In this document: positions 3,628 through 24,532 of the stretch, piece by piece
How positions within the stretch are numbered: the stretch's first letter is position 1
Layout of the letters: each line of letters begins with the position of its first letter
Notes under the pieces: model-generated
Database searches by the model: none
What the model saw: the letters and a program-made list of their open reading frames with translations, nothing else
What the model was told of the DNA's origin: nothing
Source of the DNA: a virus
Length of the DNA: 24,532 nt
IMG/VR virus record: IMGVR_UViG_3300030333_000498
Coordinates: 1-24,532 of that record
Reading direction: 5' to 3' (one strand)
Translations under genes and position numbers: made by a program

Positions 3628-4551
3628 ATGGCTAAAGGTAAAGCATCAAGACATACGTTCGTACCCGTTCAAGAGGTAGTGAGACGTAGTAAAGACAATA
3701 TGACTCGCGAGAGTATGTCATTCCCTTCGGATGTAGGAACGCATTCGTTTAATATGGCATTTAAAGAATATTCATTTACCGGAACTAATCAACAAGAAAC
3801 CACTAAATTTGATATTACATTACCTCTACCTAAAGAATTGAGGGATATGTATCAGGTTAACTTTGCTAATAAAGAATTAGGTTCTATGATCGGTCAATTA
3901 ACAGAGACGTTAGTTGATTTTGATAGTGCCGACGCTATTGACTCATTAACCACAGAGTTTAAAGCCTTTAGTGATACTAATGAATCAACAGAAGATAAAG
4001 TAGCTCAGGCTTCAGCTATGACTGGTAGAGCCGCACAAGCACCTTTCGTAGCATCGTTAGCTAGTAAGAGTAAAGCATTAAAAGCATTAACTGGTGCTGC
4101 AGCTACATTAGGATTAAATAGTGTTGAAGATGCTATTGGTGTAGGAACTGGAACTGCTGTCAACCCAGTTGAAGCTGCTGTATTACAAGGTGTATCATTA
4201 AGAAGACATCAATTCTCATGGACATTATCTCCTAGAAATAAAGACGAAGGCACAACGTTACATAATATTATTAAAAAATTAAGAAAAGATATGCACCCTT
4301 CTTTTCTTGGTATGGATGCAGGCGCAGAAGGTAACTTCATGTTTAAATATCCTCAAGCTGTAGATATTATGATTGATGGAGATGTAGAAGGCGATAGATT
4401 TAGATTTAAACCTTGTGTGATAACAGAAATGAATGCAGACTATGGTGCTGGCGGAACAGCTTTCTTTAAAGAAACTGGTGCTCCTGTTGTTACTACTCTT
4501 AATTTAAGCTTTATGGAAATCGATATCATCACTCAAGAGGATTTTGAATAA
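3628..4551 (+). CDS. 48: Baseplate tail-tube cap gp48
   Basis: This is 307 aa (T4 gp48 is 364) and the first gene of the rightward unit. The family pattern is clearest in the C-terminal half: GTAVNPVEAAVLQGVSLRRH, then FSWTLSPRNKDEGTTLHNII, KKLRKDMHPSF, FKYPQAVDIMI, RFKPCVITEMNADYGAGG and TTLNLSFMEIDIITQEDF. This is the order of the tube-cap family of T4-like phages, which shares the tube fold. The middle (about 130-175) is Ala-rich and helical, as in relatives. gp48 binds the gp27/gp5 hub and, with gp54, primes tube polymerisation. The stop overlaps the gp53 start (TAATG). Confidence 0.82.
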   Translation: MAKGKASRHTFVPVQEVVRRSKDNMTRESMSFPSDVGTHSFNMAFKEYSFTGTNQQETTKFDITLPLPKELRDMYQVNFANKELGSMIGQLTETLVDFDSADAIDSLTTEFKAFSDTNESTEDKVAQASAMTGRAAQAPFVASLASKSKALKALTGAAATLGLNSVEDAIGVGTGTAVNPVEAAVLQGVSLRRHQFSWTLSPRNKDEGTTLHNIIKKLRKDMHPSFLGMDAGAEGNFMFKYPQAVDIMIDGDVEGDRFRFKPCVITEMNADYGAGGTAFFKETGAPVVTTLNLSFMEIDIITQEDFE

Positions 4552-14100: not shown

Positions 14101-14488
14101 TACATCATTAGAGATATTAGATTCTGGATTTGGTTATGAACAAGACGGTGAATTATCATTACAAAACCCAAATACAGTGTTTATTGTAGCAGGAACTGCG
14201 AATGTAGATCAACAAGGTGTAGCAACTGGTTATTGGGAAGATAGGCGTTCGTTTATAAGTGACATAAATAAATTACATGATAGTGATTACTATCAAGACT
14301 ATTCGTACGTTACAAAGACTTCTTTAGCCTTAGAACAATACGAAGAACAACTAAAAGACATTTTGCACGTAGCAGGTAACAAGTTATTTGGTGAGGTTGT
14401 TAAAGTAGATGAAAAAGTTGCATTGAATCTTACAGCAAGCAACAGTCATATAGATACAGCCAATGCATATCATAGTTGGATGAATTAA
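11192..14488 (+). CDS. 7: Baseplate wedge protein gp7-like
   Basis: This is 1098 aa with a GTG start (T4 gp7 is 1032). The N-terminus (PSPEYISQFIKEQFPQYYFA, then LVAFILAYYEWLETTDQ, ATSDFLLNFKKIFLSGV, IYQSKGSTRSIELLLKMLYN) is typical of the large wedge protein of marine T4-like phages. The C-terminus (FISDINKLHDSDYYQDYSYV, then QYEEQLKDILHVAGNKLFGE) is another conserved block. Between them, about 215-930, is beta-rich sequence full of Gly/Asn/Thr with repeated motifs such as GGTGYSNSDTVTF, RGTGYDAADTVTF and PGAGYSSNATLAI. The gp7 name rests on position between gp6 and gp8, size and terminal blocks; direct similarity to T4 gp7 is weak. Confidence 0.75.
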   Translation: MAKPSPEYISQFIKEQFPQYYFAGGENLVAFILAYYEWLETTDQSTKVLRGLQKNRDIDTATSDFLLNFKKIFLSGVKYQTQIDDRFMVKHVSDIYQSKGSTRSIELLLKMLYNEEVEVFLPSTRVTYASDSKFKKPVYIELSPSDRTRGMVGNKITGSKSGATAFIESVITKLVNNKRITIAYLSGVIGTFQNKEFVTDDLVLKDAPQVVGSLSNITITNGGQNFEVGDTFDVISSVGKGARAKVLSTEDATGKVSFNLANGGYGYTTSNAYTRSLSANATIVVSNIVNANTEREDFFLFEQVSQTLETVTYTSAGSNAALADYANGALVVGANNTNTNVATGYAMSAVAQTFIIQTESGSFADCNYIYVANVATNGQIDTVANSSTNGELIAQNSTAIGINGNNKPFYSHAKAFVRGLASNTYANVANVGIGIGADFEVGSIGTNETLTLFTDIIGANNTAASPKPFTNVHPNGANGGMGFIDSVSIDTKITIGNRANTHTPFSANGKFSNNDVIYEANVFVDRISLVAGGTGYSNSDTVTFSGATYGTQAAASVVTDIFGKIVNVPISNNGIQYRKQPSVAITTSTGSGANVYAIMDAQKIGATGRIKTTNTTVMFVNEVANGSFSNGDVITNAGVNAFCNAATAELARGTGYDAADTVTFTGGSPTTNANTQNFTVDGSGVIQSVQINDPGAGYSSNATLAINTSTGSGASLSPVMDFGIGLPKSGAADLTTILYNALTFTNFTIGTVESLNRINPGSNYNLDPLTVLHNPYVAGFNRRDLVAVVSNINGSFTAGETLRQTVSLPGYLITHSNSSVNGITLASNSAAISIGEGVIQLTTNATGVIESSNATHIKLKDTVGAFDDSYIIQTQSSGANVDPLTGGSVQQNVSAIATGTFKTQFANNGVDHVKIRRLKFGQAFANGATLEGLSSGSTATVENMYDDENTMPIGLNAVVTANVQTANGIATSLEILDSGFGYEQDGELSLQNPNTVFIVAGTANVDQQGVATGYWEDRRSFISDINKLHDSDYYQDYSYVTKTSLALEQYEEQLKDILHVAGNKLFGEVVKVDEKVALNLTASNSHIDTANAYHSWMN
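12775..13365 (+). repeat. Gly-x-Gly-Tyr repeat modules within gp7
   Basis: At protein level, four successive units follow the pattern G-x-G-Y, polar residues, T-V-T-F or A-I-x-T, G-S-G-A: VAGGTGYSNSDTVTFSGA, NNGIQYRKQPSVAITTSTG, ARGTGYDAADTVTFTGG and DPGAGYSSNATLAINTSTG. DNA identity is low, so these are old protein repeats, not recent duplications. An earlier related unit (TNGGQNFEVGDTFDVI) lies near 11850. Confidence 0.6.
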
Positions 14489-16743
14489 TGAGTAAACTAG
14501 TAACAAAAAATTTCAACGTTCACAGCGCAATACAATTTAAAGAGAGCTTTACTGAGCCTGCTAATACATTAGTCTACTTATTCTATGGTAGACATAAACA
14601 ATGGGAAGATGGAGATAGCTCTGCTCCTACAACTATAAATTCCCTAGCTAATACACACTACGACTCATACGATCATATGTTAGGCGGTAAGCAAGTTACC
14701 GATAATGATGTTAAACATATGGTCAGAAGAAAAGATTGGACCAACGGCACAAAATACGATATGTATGATGATAGCCATACCGATCTAGATACAAAAGATT
14801 TTTTCGTGGTTGTTTCAGAACAATCACAATATAACGTTTTCAAATGTTTGGATAATAACTATGGTGCTAATTCAGTTCAAGCACCTTCTATTATTGAGAC
14901 TTCAGCCAATGATGAAATTTACATAACTGAATCTGATGGATATCAGTGGAAGTATATGTATACGATCCCGTCAGCTACTTGGGATAAGTTTGCTACAGCA
15001 GAATATATGCCTGTAGTAGCTAATACTACAGTAGAGGGAGCAGCCACACAAGGAGGAATACATGCTATAAAGGTTACTGATTCTGGAAGAGACTATGCGG
15101 CGTATGCGAATGGGTTCGTATCAGAATTTGGCGTAGGAGGTGATCCAAAATTAATAGCCATAGCGAGCCCATCCTCATACGTCTACAATGTTGGTTCCAC
15201 TACAGGCTTCGTTAAAGAAGAAGTAGAGACTAAATTTGTAGAATCTATATTAATCATAGATGGTGGTGCAGGATTTGCTACCTCAGATACAATTACAATT
15301 AATAATGGTGGTGGCTCTACATTAAATGCAACAGCTACTATCGCTTCTGTTAATGCTACTGGTGGTATAACTGGTATTACTATAACTGGTAGAGGAAAAA
15401 GTTATACAGGCACACCTACAGTAACGGTTAGTGGTGCATCTAATACAGCAGCTGCTAACTTAATAGCTAGACTAGGTACTGCTAATGGTGTTATAGTAGA
15501 TTCTAACAGTTCAACGTTGACTGTTAGTTCAATAAATGGTAATATAGATAATAATGATGAAATTAGAGGTGTATCATCTAACACCTATGCTAATGTATCA
15601 TCAAGAACAATGGCTGGAGATAATTTATCCAGTAATACAGATTTTTATAAAGGATCTTCTTTCTATGTTGAAAGAGGAACAGGAGCTGGTCAATTAGGCA
15701 CAATTGATGAGTATATAGTTACAGCAGATGAAAAGAGAGTATTATTAGCTTCTGATTTATCTGTAAACTTAGACTCTACTTCATTTTGGAGTATAGGTCC
15801 TCAAGTTCAAATTACAGGTGATGGTAATGGTGCTAAAGCTAGAGCACTTGTTGATAGTACATTAAATGCTAACGTAGTAGCTAATGTTCAAATTGTAGCA
15901 ACAGGTAATAATTATACTTGGGCAGATATTTTAATACAAGGTAATACTGGTTCAGTACAAAATGCAGTATCTAATTCTTATATTACTACTTCAAGTAAAG
16001 CAAGAGCTATTATATCACCTCAAAATGGTCATGGATATGATCCATTAAAAGAATTATATGCAAATAGAATAGGTATTAGTGTTACTATAGCTAATACAGA
16101 ATCAGCAGCATTAACTGTAGAAAATGATTTTAGAGAAATAGGATTATTAAAAGATCCTTTATTTGCTAATGGAACTTTAGTATTATCAAGTTCTGATACT
16201 AATTTTGTAGCTGGTGAGAAAATAACTGGTGCTACTTCTAATGCTACTGCAGTAGTTGTATCAGCAAACGCATCAGGAATTGCAATGAAAGATATCAGAG
16301 GATTCTTTGCAACAGAAACAATAACAGGTAACGTAGCTGGTAATTCTGTAGTACAAACAGTTACACAACCTACAACAGTATTTCGACAAACGCATAAATA
16401 TACTACAGAACTGTCCTATGCAGGAACTCTAGGTAATGGATTAATCGAAGATGAATTAATTTCACAGGGAGAATCATTAGCAAATGCTCATGTGGTAGTC
16501 ACACCAGGCGCAGCTAATGGAACAGTAGAAACAACACGTAATAGAAATGTTTTCTTACTGTCAGATGTTTCGGCAGATAAATATTTTTCAGGACAGGATA
16601 GTGCAGCTCAGATGAAGATTACAGATGTCGTATTACCAGATCTAAAAGATGGATCCGGTGAGGTCATTTATAAAGAATCATTAACTCCTATATCTAGGAA
16701 TGCTAATCAGTCTGAGACTTTTAAACTTATTTTGGAATTTTAG
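14488..16743 (+). CDS. 8: Baseplate wedge protein gp8, enlarged
   Basis: From the ATG at 14488 this is 751 aa, more than twice T4 gp8 (334). I prefer this ATG over the TTG at 14476 because it forms a TAATG junction with gp7 and gives the usual N-terminus (SKLVTKNFNVHSAIQFKESF). The first 180 residues match gp8 well: LVYLFYGRHKQWEDGD, DNDVKHMVRRKDWTNGTKYD, QYNVFKCLDNNYG, DGYQWKYMYTIPSATWDKF, AEYMPVV. After that come Gly-rich beta modules (from about 250) resembling those of gp7, and a C-terminal part with DVVLPDLKDGSGEVIYKESL that resembles the end of gp8 relatives (intermediate of assembly with SETFKLILEF at the end). Extra modules appear to have been inserted into a gp8 core. Confidence 0.82.
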   Translation: MSKLVTKNFNVHSAIQFKESFTEPANTLVYLFYGRHKQWEDGDSSAPTTINSLANTHYDSYDHMLGGKQVTDNDVKHMVRRKDWTNGTKYDMYDDSHTDLDTKDFFVVVSEQSQYNVFKCLDNNYGANSVQAPSIIETSANDEIYITESDGYQWKYMYTIPSATWDKFATAEYMPVVANTTVEGAATQGGIHAIKVTDSGRDYAAYANGFVSEFGVGGDPKLIAIASPSSYVYNVGSTTGFVKEEVETKFVESILIIDGGAGFATSDTITINNGGGSTLNATATIASVNATGGITGITITGRGKSYTGTPTVTVSGASNTAAANLIARLGTANGVIVDSNSSTLTVSSINGNIDNNDEIRGVSSNTYANVSSRTMAGDNLSSNTDFYKGSSFYVERGTGAGQLGTIDEYIVTADEKRVLLASDLSVNLDSTSFWSIGPQVQITGDGNGAKARALVDSTLNANVVANVQIVATGNNYTWADILIQGNTGSVQNAVSNSYITTSSKARAIISPQNGHGYDPLKELYANRIGISVTIANTESAALTVENDFREIGLLKDPLFANGTLVLSSSDTNFVAGEKITGATSNATAVVVSANASGIAMKDIRGFFATETITGNVAGNSVVQTVTQPTTVFRQTHKYTTELSYAGTLGNGLIEDELISQGESLANAHVVVTPGAANGTVETTRNRNVFLLSDVSADKYFSGQDSAAQMKITDVVLPDLKDGSGEVIYKESLTPISRNANQSETFKLILEF
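15244..15480 (+). repeat. Gly-rich beta modules within gp8, related to those in gp7
   Basis: Two units: IIDGGAGFATSDTITINNGG with a following TATIASV strand, and ITGRGKSYTGTPTVTVSGAS with a following AANLIARL strand. The order (G-x-G-Y/F, short loop, T-x-T-I/V, G-rich, A-x-A) is the same as in gp7, which suggests exchange or duplication between neighbouring genes. Confidence 0.55.
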
Positions 16744-16751
16744 GATAAAGA

Positions 16752-19700
16752 ATGGCGCAAAACTTAACAACAGATTTTAACGTAAGTCCTTATTTTGACG
16801 ACTACGATGAAAATAAAAAATTCTCGAGGGTACTTTTTAAGCCCGCTGTTGCTATTCAAGCACGTGAATTAACACAATTACAAACAATACTTCAAGCACA
16901 AGTTCAAAGATTTGGTAATAACATATACAAAGAAGGAACTATTATTGAAGGTTGTGATGTCACTTTCGATGAAACATTCTCATTCGTTAAACTATTAGAC
17001 TTAGATACATCTGGCACAGCCGTAGCGCCATCTACTTATACAGGCTATTTCGCTAAAGGTGTATCATCAGGCGTTGTAGCTAAAGTATCTCATTATGTAG
17101 ATGGATTAGTTACTCAGGATCCTAACCTTACAACTTTATATGTTGATTACACAAGAAGTAATGCCTCTACAGGCGCTAAAGTATTTTCTGATTCTGAAAA
17201 TATAGAAATACATAGTACCTTCCATGCAAATGATTCATCACCTATTGCAACAGTAACAGCAGCTGGTTCATTAGCTAATAATGTAGTTGGTGATGGCTAT
17301 GCTGTAACCGTTGGTGAAGGTGTTGTCTATGCTAAAGGTCATTTCTTAAAAGTATCTACTGATACTGTAGTAGCTTCAAAATATAATAAATTCCCTGATA
17401 ACGTAGCAGTTGGATTTAATGTAAAAGAAACTGTTATAACATCTGATGCAGATAATACTCTATTAGATAACGCAGCTGGCTTTAATAACGAAAATGCGCC
17501 AGGTGCAGATAGACTTAAATTAGATCCATTCTTAGTTGCTATTCCATTTGATGATGCTAGAGCAAATACAGACTTCTTATCATTAGTAGATTTCCAAAGT
17601 GGATTACCTATTACTAAAAGATTCGATACACAATTTAACTCTGTAGATGAATTTATTGCTAAAAGAACAAAAGAAGAATCAGGTAACTTCTCTGTAAGAA
17701 CAAACAATTTCCAAACAGAAGCTGCTAATACAACAACCTTTAACCTAGTAATGAGCTCAGGTCTTCATTATGTTAATGGTAAAAGAGCCGAACAATTTAA
17801 TACAACAAGAATTAATTTAGAAAGATCTACTGCTAATGCTTCTATGACTAACGTAGTCACTACTACTAACCAAGGTAGTTATGTTGTAGTAGATCAATTT
17901 ATTGGAACATTCCAAGCTAATACATTACCAGAAGTATCATTAAGAAATACAGCTGGAACATCAGTTACTGATGGTGATGCTTTATCAGTAGCACCAGGTG
18001 CTGAAATAGGTAAAGCAAGACTTAGATCAATAGAAAGATTCCAAGATTTAGGACAAGCATCTAAAGTAAGATATAAAATGCATCTCTTTAATGTTAAGAT
18101 GAATGCAGGAAAAAGATTTAAAGATACTAGAGCAGTATCATTAGCAGGACATGGTTGTGCAGATATAGTATTAGACACAGATAGTAATAATAATTCTAAA
18201 GCAGTTCTTAAAGAAGCTAATGCTGATGGTCTTATATATCCATTACCAGTTGGAGCTGTAAAAGAAACAACAAGTTCTGATTATATATTTAGAACCGTAG
18301 CAGGAACAACTGTAACAGGATCTAATACAATTACAATTACGTCTCCATCAGGAGCATTCCCATATAGTGGATCGTTAACTAATGCACAAAAGAAAGAATG
18401 GATTGTTGTAGCTAATACAACAGGAGCTAATCTTGTACAAGGTGTACCATTAGATTACTCAGCAATGACAATTAATGTATCTGGTGCAACTGCAACTATA
18501 GATATAAGTGGTCAAACAAGTTCAGCACCTTCTTCAGGATTTACTGTATCCTTTAATGCTAAAAAAGCTGCTATTACTGCACCAATTAAAAAGACACTAA
18601 AAGAAGTATATGTTAAATTACATACTTCAAACAATGCTGCTACAAGCGCAGGACCTTTCTCATTAGGTATGCCAGATGTTCAATCTATTGAAGAAGTATA
18701 TGAGAATACAGCTAATACAACATCTTGGTTAACTACTGGATCTAATTTAAAAGATAACTTTACTTTAGAAGAGAATGCTTTTGGTACACACTATGGTTTA
18801 TCTACTATAGCATTAAAACCAGGACAGAGCTTAGGTGCTAATTCAGCTGTTACAGTTAAAGTAAAAGTATTTGAATCAGATGGTGCCGCAGGCGGAGTTG
18901 GTTTCTATTCAGTATCGTCATATAAGAAAGCAGATGGTACAACAGCTTTAGATCCAGAAGATGTTCCAGTATACAGAGATGAAATTAGAGGTATAACATT
19001 TGATTTAAGGTCAATGATTGATTGTAGACCACAAGTAGCTGCAACGGCAGCATTTGCTACTACAATTGGAGCCGCTACTAAAAACCCATCAGCAACAGAA
19101 ACATTTGCAGCTGCAGATCCATTTATAGCTGCACCAGACAGACAATTCCAATGTGACCTAGTTCACTACTTAGGAAGAATAGATAAAATCTTACTTACAG
19201 AGTCTGGACTTCTCACTACTTCAAGAGGTATAGCATCATTACAACCTGTGCCTCCAAGTGATAAGCCATCAACTATGACTCTTGGTTCAATTCATGTTCC
19301 ACCATTCCCTTCATTAACATCTGATGAAGCTAAAGATACGCTTAGAAAAAATGAAGCTATTAAGATTCAACGTAAAGCAACAGCTCGTTATACTATGGCG
19401 GATATTGGAAAGATAGATAGAAGATTAAAAAATCTTGAGTATTATACTACTCTTAGCCAACTAGAAACAAAAACTAATAATATGGCTATTACTGATGCTA
19501 ACGGTAATGATAGATTTAAAAACGGTATATTTGTAGATCCGGCTACAAACTTTGATAGTGCGGATTTAAATAATAGAGAGTTCCGTTGTTCAATTGATTC
19601 TACTAAAACACAATTTGTACCTAAGCAACAAATGACTGATGTAGATTTAGTAGTTGCTAATACAAGTAACGTCATAGACCTTAGTGGATCTTATACAATG

Positions 19701-21131
19701 GATGGTGCGGAGTATCTTGCAATAGAACAAGCATATGGTACTACAGCTAGACCATGCACAGATGTATATTACAAATACTTTGGTAAGCTAACCATATTCC
19801 CATCTTATGATGCTGGTTATGATGAAACAGTAATGCCTACTAAAGAAATAGTTAATGATCAAGCATCAGGTATTCAAGATTTATTTGATGGTATTAATGA
19901 AGTATATCCATTAACAAGAACATCAACAGAATTAATTGGTTCAGATACAGTATCTGAAGAAACCTCAGAAACACATACTACAACCGATCATAATGATTGG
20001 GGATATGACTGGTGGGAAGGTGAATATGACATCTATCATCACGGTTATGGTCATCATGGCTATGGCGAATACTATGGTGGATATGGTCATCATGGTTATG
20101 GCTGGAATGGCTATTGGTGGGGAGGTACTGGAACCACAACAACAGAAACAACTACAACTACTACTACATCAACTACGACTGATACATACTTAGCTACAAC
20201 TCAATCGTTGTCAATGGGTGTTAAAGAAAGCACAGAGAAGATTGGTGACTTTATTACTGATGTAACATTCTCACCATTTATGAGAGCAAAACAAATTAGT
20301 TTTTGGGCTACAGGATTAAAACCAAATCAAAGACATTATTTCTTCTTTGATGGTGATAAAGTTAATCATCGTGTTAAACAAGGTAGATTTAAAGGTGGTG
20401 GTTATGCTAGTGGTAAAATGGCTTTACAAGAACGTCACATTGTTTCAACTGGAGCATTCCTAGGTTCAAGTGGATATTTAGTATCAGACGATGTTGGTAA
20501 CTTAGTAGGACAATTCTATTTACCTGGCGGAACTTATCACGTTGGTGAAAGAGAAATGGTTGTTGCAGATGTAAATGACGTTGGCAACCTAGGTAATTCT
20601 CAATCCAAAGCATCAGCAAAATACAATGCATATAACTATAATGTAGAGAAAACAGAATATACGCTTACAACTAAAGCACCTACATTTAATTTATCAACTT
20701 CAACTCAAGAATATACTAACGTAAGTGCAGTAGACGTATCTACTAACACATCAACTAATACAGACTGGAGTTGGAACTGGAATTATCATAATACATATTA
20801 TACAAATGTATTCAGTAATAATAACCTAACATCAAATACAGATTATACACCTAATTCATCTTACATCGATTATGGTGGTATTGAATCTGCAGCTGGATCA
20901 GGCACATTAACTGATTACTCTTATTTGTATGACTACACCGGCATGACAACAATATATCCAACTGGTAACCCAACTACAACAGGTACTGGTGATATTGGCG
21001 TAGGCGCTATAACTGGTTCAGGTGGTGGAGCAAATAATTATCAATTTGCATCAACAGATTATACACTAGGCGGTAAGTATTCTTTAGATAACTTACTAGG
21101 CACCGGTCCAGATTTATCGGGGATATTTTAA
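16752..21131 (+). CDS. Giant DUF4815-type structural protein
   Basis: This is 1459 aa with an AGGA ribosome binding site, 8 nt after gp8. The N-terminus carries the DUF4815 signature known from cyanophages: NVSPYFDDYDENKKFSRVLF, FKPAVAIQARELTQLQTILQ, VQRFGNNIYKEGTIIEG, and later NENAPGADRLKLDPFLV, DEIRGITFDLRSMIDCRPQV, YLGRIDKILLTESG and RYTMADIGKIDRRLKNLEYY. A His/Gly/Tyr/Trp-rich segment (about 1079-1125) and a Thr-rich tract (1126-1145) follow, then a further conserved block (SPFMRAKQISFWATGLKPNQ, FYLPGGTYHVGEREMVVADV) and a low-complexity Asn/Thr/Tyr/Gly C-terminus from about 1310. It is likely a peripheral baseplate or fibre-attachment protein. Its usual C-terminal region seems to be encoded by the next gene. 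Confidence 0.82.
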   Translation: MAQNLTTDFNVSPYFDDYDENKKFSRVLFKPAVAIQARELTQLQTILQAQVQRFGNNIYKEGTIIEGCDVTFDETFSFVKLLDLDTSGTAVAPSTYTGYFAKGVSSGVVAKVSHYVDGLVTQDPNLTTLYVDYTRSNASTGAKVFSDSENIEIHSTFHANDSSPIATVTAAGSLANNVVGDGYAVTVGEGVVYAKGHFLKVSTDTVVASKYNKFPDNVAVGFNVKETVITSDADNTLLDNAAGFNNENAPGADRLKLDPFLVAIPFDDARANTDFLSLVDFQSGLPITKRFDTQFNSVDEFIAKRTKEESGNFSVRTNNFQTEAANTTTFNLVMSSGLHYVNGKRAEQFNTTRINLERSTANASMTNVVTTTNQGSYVVVDQFIGTFQANTLPEVSLRNTAGTSVTDGDALSVAPGAEIGKARLRSIERFQDLGQASKVRYKMHLFNVKMNAGKRFKDTRAVSLAGHGCADIVLDTDSNNNSKAVLKEANADGLIYPLPVGAVKETTSSDYIFRTVAGTTVTGSNTITITSPSGAFPYSGSLTNAQKKEWIVVANTTGANLVQGVPLDYSAMTINVSGATATIDISGQTSSAPSSGFTVSFNAKKAAITAPIKKTLKEVYVKLHTSNNAATSAGPFSLGMPDVQSIEEVYENTANTTSWLTTGSNLKDNFTLEENAFGTHYGLSTIALKPGQSLGANSAVTVKVKVFESDGAAGGVGFYSVSSYKKADGTTALDPEDVPVYRDEIRGITFDLRSMIDCRPQVAATAAFATTIGAATKNPSATETFAAADPFIAAPDRQFQCDLVHYLGRIDKILLTESGLLTTSRGIASLQPVPPSDKPSTMTLGSIHVPPFPSLTSDEAKDTLRKNEAIKIQRKATARYTMADIGKIDRRLKNLEYYTTLSQLETKTNNMAITDANGNDRFKNGIFVDPATNFDSADLNNREFRCSIDSTKTQFVPKQQMTDVDLVVANTSNVIDLSGSYTMDGAEYLAIEQAYGTTARPCTDVYYKYFGKLTIFPSYDAGYDETVMPTKEIVNDQASGIQDLFDGINEVYPLTRTSTELIGSDTVSEETSETHTTTDHNDWGYDWWEGEYDIYHHGYGHHGYGEYYGGYGHHGYGWNGYWWGGTGTTTTETTTTTTTSTTTDTYLATTQSLSMGVKESTEKIGDFITDVTFSPFMRAKQISFWATGLKPNQRHYFFFDGDKVNHRVKQGRFKGGGYASGKMALQERHIVSTGAFLGSSGYLVSDDVGNLVGQFYLPGGTYHVGEREMVVADVNDVGNLGNSQSKASAKYNAYNYNVEKTEYTLTTKAPTFNLSTSTQEYTNVSAVDVSTNTSTNTDWSWNWNYHNTYYTNVFSNNNLTSNTDYTPNSSYIDYGGIESAAGSGTLTDYSYLYDYTGMTTIYPTGNPTTTGTGDIGVGAITGSGGGANNYQFASTDYTLGGKYSLDNLLGTGPDLSGIF
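20020..20186 (+). repeat. His/Gly/Tyr/Trp-rich repeats and Thr tract inside the giant protein
   Basis: The translated stretch contains YHHGYGHHGYGEYYGGYG followed by HHGYGWNGYWWGG, then a tract of Thr with a few Glu/Ser (20127-20186). At DNA level a 24-nt unit encoding GYGHHGYG occurs at 20043-20066 and again at 20079-20102 (22 of 24 bases identical), 36 nt apart, a recent-looking internal duplication. The composition is unlike the rest of the protein. Confidence 0.75.
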
Positions 21132-23143
21132 TGAAAAAAGAAAGTAATCCAATAGCACAAACATTCTTTCTGCCGAATCTAAGGTTTGCCGGATCAGATG
21201 GTGTTAATTTAACAGGTATAGATTTATTCTTTAAACAAAGAGGTGATGCTTCTGGGTTTAATGTTTGGATTTGTGACTGTGATGGTGGAACTCCTAATCC
21301 TAAAAAAGAGGTACCAGGATCTTTCACAAGAGTAATAAGAAACCAAATAAAGGTAAGTAGTAATGCACAAACACCTACACACGTATTGTTTAATTCACCG
21401 GTCTATTTAAAAGTAGATCATAGATATGCAGTTTGTGTAGAAGTAGATGGTGGTAATCCTAATCTATTAATATGGATTTCAGAACAAGGTAAAGATGATG
21501 TACATCTAAACAAACCTGTTCCATCTAATTTTGAATTAGGTGCTTTCTTTACATCTTCAGGTGGTGCTTATACTCCTATAACTAACCAAGATTTAAAATT
21601 TGATTTATATGTTGGTATGTATAAAGTAAACACTAAAGGCATAGTCAATATGACTAATGCAGATTTAGAGTTCTTAACATTAGATACTACATCAGGCGCA
21701 TTCGTAAAACCAGAAGAAGTATTCCAGGTGCCATCTTCTTTTATTAATGGTACAATAACAGCAAATGCATCTAGTAGAACGTTAGCTGGATCTAGCACTA
21801 AATTCTCTACTGAATTTTCTGCTGGTGATACTATTGCTATTGTAGCTAATAGTACAGTAGCTGACGTCGTTACAATTGAATCTATTGAAAGTAATACTTC
21901 TTTAACATTAGAAGGCGCACCAACATTCTCAGCTACTTGTAATGGAGCTATTACACCTTGTGGTATTGCAGAAAGATATGAGACTAAAGATGGCGTAGTT
22001 ACTATGCACATAAGTAGTTCAACTGCTAAATCAGGATCAGTATTTACAGCAGGTCAAACGTTAAGAGGAGCAAATACAAATGCGGTAGCTAATATTGCTT
22101 CAGTAGATGTTTTACCAGTAAGTTATTTCCATCCTAAGTTAGCTAAAATAGCACCAACAGGTGGTCATGTCTTTACTACATTTAAATCTACTAATAAAGA
22201 TGATATAACAGATACAGAAACAAGAAATATAATTTACGGTGCTAAAAACCACATTCCTAATTTTGAAGGTGGTATTCATTCTAAGTCATTAGAGATAACT
22301 AATAATAGTGGTGCTAAATCATTTGTAGTAACATCTAAAATGTCTTCAACTAATAAGTGGGTTACACCTGTAGTTGATGGAGATGTATCTAAATTAGAAT
22401 CATACAAATATATTATTAATAGTAACAGCGCCAATGAAAGAACATTTGGTCAAGGTGTTGCTAATACTAAGTATCTATCCAAAACAGTTACATTGGCACC
22501 AGGTATTGATTCAGAAGATTTAAATGTTTATATTTCAGGATATAGACCATCTAATACTAGCTTTGAAGTATATGCTAAGTTGATTAATCAATCTGATTCT
22601 GATACACTAGTAGATAGACAGTGGACTAAACTAATAGAAGAAGATGCTCAGAAAGAGTTGTTTAGTTCTGATAGACATATGAATGATGTCAAAGAATTTA
22701 AATTTACTGTTCCAGAATTTCCAACTGCGGATTCAACAAATGTACAAACAGGAACAGCAAACACTACTGCTGATAGCACAACAGTTCCTTGTAATGGATC
22801 AAATTTCTCTCAAGGAGATTTAATAGCTATCACAGATGGTACATTTGATATTTACCAAGTAGGTAGAGTAGAATCGGCTAATAGTACAAATGTAACATTA
22901 AGCTCAGCAGCTGATATATCTATTACTAATGGTAAATTCTATAAAGTAAATGCTGATGAAAAGAGAGCAGCATTTAAACAAAGAACAAATAGTGGTGCTA
23001 CATTTAAGTTAAGATATTTTGATTCAGCAGGAAGAGAATTTGAAGCATTCAATGCTTTCCAAATTAAAGTAGTATTCTTAGCTGATCAAACAAGAAGAGT
23101 ACCTCGTATTAATGATGTAAGAGCGGTGGCCCTAAGTGCGTAA
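21131..23143 (+). CDS. Structural protein, probable detached C-terminal part of DUF4815-type protein
   Basis: This is 670 aa, joined to the previous gene by a TAATG overlap with a GGGGA site upstream. It opens with NPIAQTFFLPNLRFAG, then NLTGIDLFFKQRGDAS, FNVWICDCDGGTPNPKK, VLFNSPVYLKVDHRYAVCVE and NLLIWISEQGKDDV, then LKFDLYVGMYKVN. I recall this block ('DPLAQTF..., ...SPVYL...YAV..., ...WIS..G') as the C-terminal region of long single-chain proteins in related phages. Further on are two similar beta modules (near 210-285 and 545-615), each with a 'G-D-x-I-A-I' core, and a last part with KLRYFDSAGREFEAFNAFQI. It likely assembles with the giant protein on the baseplate periphery. Confidence 0.75.
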   Translation: MKKESNPIAQTFFLPNLRFAGSDGVNLTGIDLFFKQRGDASGFNVWICDCDGGTPNPKKEVPGSFTRVIRNQIKVSSNAQTPTHVLFNSPVYLKVDHRYAVCVEVDGGNPNLLIWISEQGKDDVHLNKPVPSNFELGAFFTSSGGAYTPITNQDLKFDLYVGMYKVNTKGIVNMTNADLEFLTLDTTSGAFVKPEEVFQVPSSFINGTITANASSRTLAGSSTKFSTEFSAGDTIAIVANSTVADVVTIESIESNTSLTLEGAPTFSATCNGAITPCGIAERYETKDGVVTMHISSSTAKSGSVFTAGQTLRGANTNAVANIASVDVLPVSYFHPKLAKIAPTGGHVFTTFKSTNKDDITDTETRNIIYGAKNHIPNFEGGIHSKSLEITNNSGAKSFVVTSKMSSTNKWVTPVVDGDVSKLESYKYIINSNSANERTFGQGVANTKYLSKTVTLAPGIDSEDLNVYISGYRPSNTSFEVYAKLINQSDSDTLVDRQWTKLIEEDAQKELFSSDRHMNDVKEFKFTVPEFPTADSTNVQTGTANTTADSTTVPCNGSNFSQGDLIAITDGTFDIYQVGRVESANSTNVTLSSAADISITNGKFYKVNADEKRAAFKQRTNSGATFKLRYFDSAGREFEAFNAFQIKVVFLADQTRRVPRINDVRAVALSA

Positions 23144-23390
23144 AAGATTACAACCAACTAATATACCAGGTTTAGTTAAAGACAATGCTTCTGGAGCAGT
23201 CATAAATACTGATATAGAAGGATATAAAGCATACAAGCTAGCTAGAGAAAAAAGAATTAAAAGTTTAGAAAGGGTCGATAAATTAGAAATGGAAGTTGTG
23301 TCATTAAAGAACACAATAAAGACACAAAACGGAACTCTGGAAGAAATGAGTTCTATGTTAAAGATTTTAGTAGATAACCATGGCAGATAA
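23136..23390 (+). CDS. Small coiled-coil structural protein (GTG start)
   Basis: This is 84 aa. GTG at 23136 is the only workable start before the conserved stretch (KRLQPTNIPGLVKDNASGA, then VINTDIEGYKAYKLAREK); it overlaps the previous gene by 8 nt. The second half has heptads (IKSLERVDKLEMEVVSLKNT) and ends LEEMSSMLKILVDNHGR, probably a coiled coil. I recall similar 60-90 aa proteins ('NIPGL...D..TGA..N.D...Y..YK..R') beside fibre genes in T4-like marine phages. Their role is not known; linking fibre to baseplate would fit. The 3' end overlaps the next gene by 11 nt. Confidence 0.75.
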   Translation: MRKRLQPTNIPGLVKDNASGAVINTDIEGYKAYKLAREKRIKSLERVDKLEMEVVSLKNTIKTQNGTLEEMSSMLKILVDNHGR

Positions 23391-24532
23391 AAAATATATA
23401 AGTGCTAATATAGCATATCAAACAGATACCTTCGGAGCTTGGGTCGAAAGAACCAACCAAATGGTATTTGATATGTCTGAAAGAGTTGTTACCTCTCAGG
23501 TCAATTCTATAGGTGCAGCCACAACAGGTAACGTTGTTATCACATCCAATGTTTGGAATAGTGATACTTCTGCATACGTAAATTCTACTGGTGGTGTATT
23601 ACAAGCTAATACATTAACAGCATATGGAGATTTACGTGGTGGTTCTGTAGATACACCGGCTGTATTAGTTGTATCATCTAATTCACATTTATCAGGTAAT
23701 ACAACACATGGTGTAGTTGCTGTTACATCAAATACTACATACGGAGCTGGTAGAATAACTACAAAAGGTGATTATGTAGATATGCAGTCTACAAACACTT
23801 TTGTTAATGGTTCTTTATTACAAGTAAGTTCAAATGTTCATATTAATAGTACATCAACAAATGCTTCTATTAATGCTACAACAACACACATTGATGGTAC
23901 TACTTTAAATCTTAAAGGAACAACTTTAAACGCAAACTATGATAATATCGTAGTCACTGCTAACGATCAATCATTTAAATCAAATTCATCTGTTACAGCC
24001 TTCATGATAGATTATGATGGAACATCAACAGGCATTAGTATTCCTGCTGGTAATACATTTGTAGTAGATGCTGATGAAACTACATTTAACGCTAACGTAT
24101 CATTAGGTAGTGCTAATGATGATACTGTATCATTCTTATCAGAAGTAGATACTGGTATTAATCCTGTAAGCAATACTTTAAGCTTAGGTTTAAACGACGC
24201 TAGATGGATTATTAAAGCAAATAATATTAATGTAAGCACAGACTTAACTGTTAGTGGTAATTCTGTATTAGGATCCAATTCTTCAGATGCATTGGGTGTA
24301 AATGCTAAAATAAATACAAATGTAATTCCATCAGCAAATGGAACAAAGTCATTAGGTAATACATCTCTAAGATGGGATGGTCAGTTTGATGATTTAACAG
24401 CAGATGATTTAACTGTAGATGCTAATGCATCGGTAACAGGTCACTTAGCTGTAACTGCTACATCTGTTCTTTCAAATACATTAACTGTAGCAGGCGCTAC
24501 ACAAATAAACAATACATTAGCTGCTGGTAATA
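23380..24532 (+). CDS. Tail fibre-like protein, N-terminal part (runs off right edge)
   Basis: The ATG is at 23380, overlapping the preceding gene; 384 codons are visible and the frame is open at the window end. The start reads MADKKYISANIAYQTDTFGA, then WVERTNQMVFDMSERVVTSQ, a motif I recall at the head of fibre-type proteins in marine T4-like phages. The rest is beta-rich, poor in charged residues and full of N/T/S/G/V, as expected of fibrous trimers. From about residue 265 two units share an 'SLG..xxRW' turn followed by '(D)LTV.....V.G' strands: NTLSLGLNDARWI and GTKSLGNTSLRWDG. A receptor-binding tip, if any, lies beyond the window. Confidence 0.75.
   Translation, partial: MADKKYISANIAYQTDTFGAWVERTNQMVFDMSERVVTSQVNSIGAATTGNVVITSNVWNSDTSAYVNSTGGVLQANTLTAYGDLRGGSVDTPAVLVVSSNSHLSGNTTHGVVAVTSNTTYGAGRITTKGDYVDMQSTNTFVNGSLLQVSSNVHINSTSTNASINATTTHIDGTTLNLKGTTLNANYDNIVVTANDQSFKSNSSVTAFMIDYDGTSTGISIPAGNTFVVDADETTFNANVSLGSANDDTVSFLSEVDTGINPVSNTLSLGLNDARWIIKANNINVSTDLTVSGNSVLGSNSSDALGVNAKINTNVIPSANGTKSLGNTSLRWDGQFDDLTADDLTVDANASVTGHLAVTATSVLSNTLTVAGATQINNTLAAGN

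Follow-up and report, generated by a model that had tools for sequence, protein, structure and literature searches.

An aromatic- and glycine-rich insert maintained by composition in a VrlC-type baseplate protein of uncultured tailed phages

The window, by which we mean the whole 24,532-nucleotide stretch of DNA analysed here (IMG/VR virus record IMGVR_UViG_3300030333_000498, positions 1 to 24,532), carries a set of baseplate genes in an order that matches phiM12 and HTVC008M. Genes resembling the gp25, gp6, gp7 and gp8 baseplate wedge genes lie upstream of a large open reading frame, ORF1, and the T4 gp8-like gene (14476-16743) directly precedes it. The features of ORF1 and its downstream neighbour are as follows.

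16752..21131, + strand: ORF1, DUF4815/VrlC-type baseplate protein of 1459 aa, with PF16075 and phrog_358/phrog_877 matches
19359..19886, + strand: conserved block 'up', residues 870-1045, from a profile built here; also found in A511 gp106 and phi812 ORF65
19914..19991, + strand: predicted extended strand A, residues 1055-1080, running into the insert; block pLDDT from about 79 to 51
19989..20132, + strand: aromatic-glycine insert, residues 1080-1127, 48 aa (15 Gly, 10 Tyr, 6 Trp, 7 His); predicted loop, pLDDT 34-45
20133..20192, + strand: threonine tract, residues 1128-1147, at the start of predicted strand B (1129-1173)
20241..20696, + strand: conserved block 'dn', residues 1164-1315, from a profile; with the end of 'up' in a predicted Ig-like domain
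20637..20765, + strand: third long strand predicted by AlphaFold2, residues 1296-1338, forming the Thr/Ser-rich linker 2
20763..20801, + strand: aromatic cluster DWSWNWNYHNTYY, start of the disordered C-terminal tail, similar in most clade members
20973..21029, + strand: motif TTTGTG(SKAxx)AITGSGGG of the clade, within the tail and near the ORF1 C-terminus, present in the window and most clade contigs
21131..23143, + strand: ORF2, separately encoded distal part with the third block (NPIAQTF...), at phrog_358 positions 1419-1650; third-block profile 139.9 bits

Further downstream, an open-ended ORF at 23380-24531 shows a repeated Asn/Ser/Thr-rich pattern, has a homologue in contig L186, and is probably a fibre.

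ORF1 matches Pfam PF16075 (DUF4815) with E 2.6e-53 and 181.7 bits, above the cut-off of 30 and with the gathering score passed, and it also matches phrog_877 and, with E 1.1e-226, the N-terminal and middle part of phrog_358. These matches, together with its place after the wedge genes, identify ORF1 at the sequence level as a VrlC-type baseplate protein of a T4-superfamily myovirus. The preliminary description of this DNA had called it a giant structural protein of the DUF4815 type; the family assignment holds, and the protein is more exactly a VrlC/DUF4815 baseplate protein. Its closest cultured relatives, at 35% identity, are those of the Sinorhizobium phages phiM7, phiM12, phiM19 and phiN3. 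Listeria phage A511 gp106 is a DUF4815 protein as well (E 2e-197), and Staphylococcus phage phi812 ORF65 (PDB 9euf) matches the profile with E 1.4e-28. Like ORF1, both carry the block order 'up', linker, 'dn', third block, the 'up' block being matched at residues 465-613 of A511 gp106 and 411-609 of phi812 ORF65; the third block, however, lies in ORF2 of the window, whereas A511 gp106 is one polypeptide. Our search for an assigned role of the VrlC/DUF4815 linkers found none, and a literature search for DUF4815 and 9EUF returned no informative paper.

Residues 1080-1127 of ORF1 read HNDWGYDWWEGEYDIYHHGYGHHGYGEYYGGYGHHGYGWNGYWWGGTG and are followed by TTTTETTTTTTTSTTTDTYL. The preliminary description had reported a His/Gly/Tyr/Trp-rich segment and a Thr tract at 19980-20186, which correspond to residues 1077-1145 of ORF 16752-21131, and our analysis bears out both, as well as the HHGYG units, present in three copies, and the return of the conserved part downstream of the Thr tract (IGDFITDVTFSPFMR...). 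Gly, Tyr, Trp and His account for 38 of the 48 residues of the insert (79%), as compared with 13.8% in the remaining protein (binomial tail 3e-24), and the richest other 48-residue window of ORF1 holds 17 of them. Gly makes up 15 of 48 residues (31%) with a longest run of two, about one third of the insert is aromatic, and a 15-bp tandem repeat is present in two copies. In a scan of 1,204 ORFs from the fetched loci (865,738 windows of forty residues), only the insert, as it occurs here and in its clade, and a small number of poly-Gly proteins had a Gly, Tyr and Trp (G+Y+W) content of at least 24 of 40. Four loci (L242, L275, L182 and L109) carry poly-Gly segments in other ORFs, and these resemble polyglycine-II adhesins more than the insert does.

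We modelled residues 812-1459 as a monomer with AlphaFold2 from 83 sequences (mean pLDDT 69). The model predicts an extended segment at 1055-1080, an unstructured segment at 1081-1129, a long strand at 1129-1173 and a third long strand at 1296-1338, followed by an unstructured C-terminal tail. The insert is thus predicted to be a loop between extended strands. Confidence is low in the distal part of strand A, whereas the pLDDT of strand B rises from 45 to above 90; because the pLDDT at the hairpin end is 35-68 and the equivalent phiN3 region is low as well, a straight hairpin stalk is to be read as a prediction only. By comparison of the partial model with known structures, the best VIA-align score among the matches listed was Z 8.4, over model residues 199-483, to Ig-like folds and at the level of a common fold, and a Foldseek search of the PDB found nothing below E 0.001. 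The phi812 structure 9euf was not among the VIA-align matches listed, and the relation to phi812 rests on the sequence profile. The preliminary description had named a loop among the possibilities and had set against it an invariant segment buried in a predicted core; the model places the insert in a loop, and the insert varies among relatives, as described below.

The Thr tract had been counted as part of the oddity, but it proved to be the ordinary part, since a Thr-rich linker is a widespread feature of the family and the insert is placed before it. Thr runs occur at this linker in phiM12 (TSTSGRTTTTRRTTTTTATTTTT) and, similarly, in Rhizobium phage RHph_I1_18 and Ochrobactrum phage OC, and cyanophage-type contigs carry GRRGAGTETTTITT there. 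The VrlC proteins of phiM12, phiM7 and phiN3 have the same Thr tract at the same place, but their genes are unsplit and the short turn TSTSGR stands where the insert would be; at this position most relatives likewise carry a short turn rich in Arg/Gly or in Ser. The Thr-rich linker and the aromatic-glycine insert differ in origin. At linker 2, most clade members share the aromatic cluster of the ORF1 tail, which reads YAYNWWWDEYYH or similar. The Tyr/Trp/His make-up of linkers 1 and 2 shows a raw correlation of rho 0.49; after phylogenetic contrasts this co-variation is weak (r 0.20-0.23, p about 0.004-0.013; control near 0), and we therefore left it out as support.

Alignment-guided scans of IMG/VR found ten clade contigs besides the window, and an extra scan for further members added none. 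The clade has a support of 1.0 in a tree of the flanking blocks built without L186 and duplicates. Nine of the ten carry a G/Y/W-rich insert at the same site, and the remaining one, L173, has an Asn/Tyr-rich loop in its place. In the window and the seven clade contigs measured individually, the insert spans 40-48 aa with 64-72% G+Y+W, so that its length varies, as do its order and His content. The inserts of L169 and L170 are nearly identical to those of L085 and L165, and the near-identical contig L059 ends upstream of the insert and is uninformative there. None of the cultured phages examined has the insert; HTVC008M, one of them, carries a linker with a W-x-x-W motif of another kind. This agrees with the initial remark that the segment was not known from relatives, and the carriers of the insert are a rare group of uncultured tailed phages. 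Its kind, a loop confined to one clade within a phage baseplate protein, is known, and the variant is new as far as these collections show. A Trp-rich loop, WWWNRHNGWYGRNGYYNWGWWGGW, has arisen independently in linker 1 of L218, an unsplit protein that is sister to a short-turn protein. In the clade member L186, an in-frame stop at about nt 4522-4524, between the Thr tract and 'dn', may reflect a genuine split or an error in the sequence.

The make-up of the insert is under selection. Between L085 and L168, 37 of 38 aligned insert residues are kept, and between L085 and L166, 35 of 42, with synonymous sites near or beyond saturation in both pairs. Relative to the flanking blocks, the dN of the insert ranges from about equal to about fourfold and is higher in most pairs, its dN/dS is well below 1 with dS about 1 or saturated, and the indels between inserts of close relatives are small and in frame (4-5 residues). 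Comparison of close pairs gave no sign of diversifying selection. In simulations of unconstrained drift starting from L085, 0.3 substitutions per site brought G+Y+W down to 37% and 1.0 brought it to 15%, stops arose in more than 94%, and 64% G+Y+W was kept in none of 2000 runs. Since the natural inserts retain 64-72% G+Y+W despite dS of about 1 or saturation, selection holds the make-up and approximate length of the insert, but not its order or sequence.

The site of the insert also tolerates chain breaks. Eleven sequences have a gene split inside linker 1, including Caulobacter phage Cr30 (L050) and Xanthomonas phage X1 (L053), the others being L140, L204, L205, L210, L246, L252, L287, L284 and L067. 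Parsimony on a tree of 191 sequences, which holds nine of the eleven, counts five split events, and the gene was thus broken here independently at least five times, with X1 and Cr30 as cultured examples. Several split lineages have a ribosome-site-like sequence ahead of the second ORF, which starts with the Thr tract in one group (LAAVNTTTTVTTTTSTR) and just ahead of the next block in Cr30. The recurrence of chain breaks in these lineages argues against a folded core at this site. X1 and Cr30 thus change at the same linker as the window, but by a chain break and not by an inserted loop. The window clade, by comparison, is split at linker 2: ORF2 opens with the third block, and the stop of ORF1 overlaps its start (TAATG). 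An assembly error does not account for the split, as the break recurs at the same position in other clade members; where the junctions were read (L085, L086 and L087), ORF1 ends just ahead of the new ATG. Among other split DUF4815 proteins, an ORF of L206 (from nt 3790, + strand) has a long Gly-Thr repeat (GTGTGT...) after 'dn'. A DUF4815-type ORF at L209:3784-5571 has a weak C-terminal Hint-type domain (PT-HINT E 0.0013, Vint E 0.008); both matches fall below the curated cut-offs, and a BFVD relative is also named a Hint-domain protein.

The make-up of the insert is kept, its sequence is free, and its site is often cut in relatives, which together point to a probably exposed, sticky tip. Of the sticky, receptor-facing loop suggested initially, we accordingly favour the sticky and exposed part, and a receptor-facing orientation is possible. 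We put a probability of roughly 60% on the reading that the insert is an exposed adhesive tip loop that binds baseplate parts together or touches the host surface. Trimers of gp106 make up pyramids on A511, and these swing round to the cell wall when the phage attaches (PMC9863714, PMC11406892). This makes an exposed, contact-making tip plausible for ORF1, which by homology may form a trimer standing out from the baseplate wedge as A511 gp106 does. The A511 linker is also aromatic (WWLHGGNYY), but it is short and mixed and lacks the 40-48 residue G/Y/W tract. In such an arrangement, the blocks of ORF1 would be joined by two Thr-rich extended linkers, with the insert where linker 1 turns back. 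Three loops per trimer could then give the exposed tip a sticky aromatic patch, capable of many weak aromatic, hydrogen-bond or glycan-type contacts. Candidate partners would be baseplate parts, such as ORF2 or a neighbouring subunit, or the host envelope, and docking within the virion and contact with the host surface seem to us about equally likely.

In the more specific host-facing form of the tip-loop reading, which we hold tentatively and well short of even odds, the loop would bind glycans or lipids of the host envelope and aid adsorption. Aromatic-rich surfaces often bind glycans, and the insert evolves faster than its flanks in most pairs. An adsorption role has been proposed for A511 gp106, which has carbohydrate-binding folds and turns to face the cell wall (PMC9863714, PMC11406892). 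Against a host-facing role stand the absence of any sign of diversifying selection and the high identity of inserts in close pairs with saturated dS, and VrlC is a conserved core gene of pelagimyophages, used for their phylogeny, that lies outside their variable host-recognition cluster (PMC7029224).

The other specific form of the tip-loop reading, equally possible but doubtful if taken alone, is that the loop and the aromatic tail of ORF1 dock ORF2 and replace the covalent link, which the clade has lost at linker 2, where a further aromatic tail now stands. The split at linker 2 is common to all eight clade members whose status was resolved, most of them with the aromatic tail, and docking through Trp has a precedent in S16 gp38, which sits on gp37 through conserved Trp residues (PMC6851490). 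The splits, however, belong to one clade and thus to one evolutionary event, and the linker co-variation is weak. We rejected the idea that gene split and aromatic loop always go together, since the unsplit proteins of L218 and A511 have aromatic tips as well. In a bolder version, which we consider rather unlikely, the low-complexity loop would act as a reversible, sticker-type adhesive at the tip of the projection, replacing the severed link between the protein halves. It would be kept up by selection on composition alone and is likened here to condensate-forming, silk-type and beak-type proteins.

The remaining readings fare much worse. Metal binding, raised in the preliminary description on account of the segment's composition, would suit the seven His and three HHGYG units of the window's insert, but His numbers across the eight measured inserts are 7, 5, 4, 2, 1, 1, 1 and 0, that is, 0-2 in five of them while G/Y/W stays; a DNA pattern coding for HHGYGHHG gave four chance matches in viral contigs and none in a related protein. 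With order and His content this variable, a metal-binding loop is very improbable. A functionless, neutral expansion by slippage would fit the short tandem repeat of the window and the small indels among close relatives, yet it is hardly compatible with a composition kept across saturated synonymous change and lost in every drift run. Least probable of all is the suggested polyglycine II (PGII) sandwich like that of S16 gp38, with which the insert shares a Gly-rich, loop-borne segment in the tail-tip region of a phage and, in some clade members, a common Gly spacing of three: gp38 is a separate monomer on gp37 with a PGII lattice, more than 50% Gly, ten glycine-rich motifs and Gly runs of up to eight (PMC6851490), whereas the insert lies within a baseplate protein, is far poorer in Gly and one third aromatic, and a family search matched the protein to DUF4815 only and the insert to nothing.

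VrlC/DUF4815 is a widespread baseplate protein, found in phages of Gram-negative and Gram-positive hosts alike. Linker 1 is a hot spot where its lineages have either gained loops or split the gene, and this suggests an exposed tip that is free to evolve. Baseplates are rigid machines, in which it is unusual for a loop to be conserved in composition but not in sequence, and the insert would offer a natural test of sticker-type adhesion, whether in virion assembly or in host contact.
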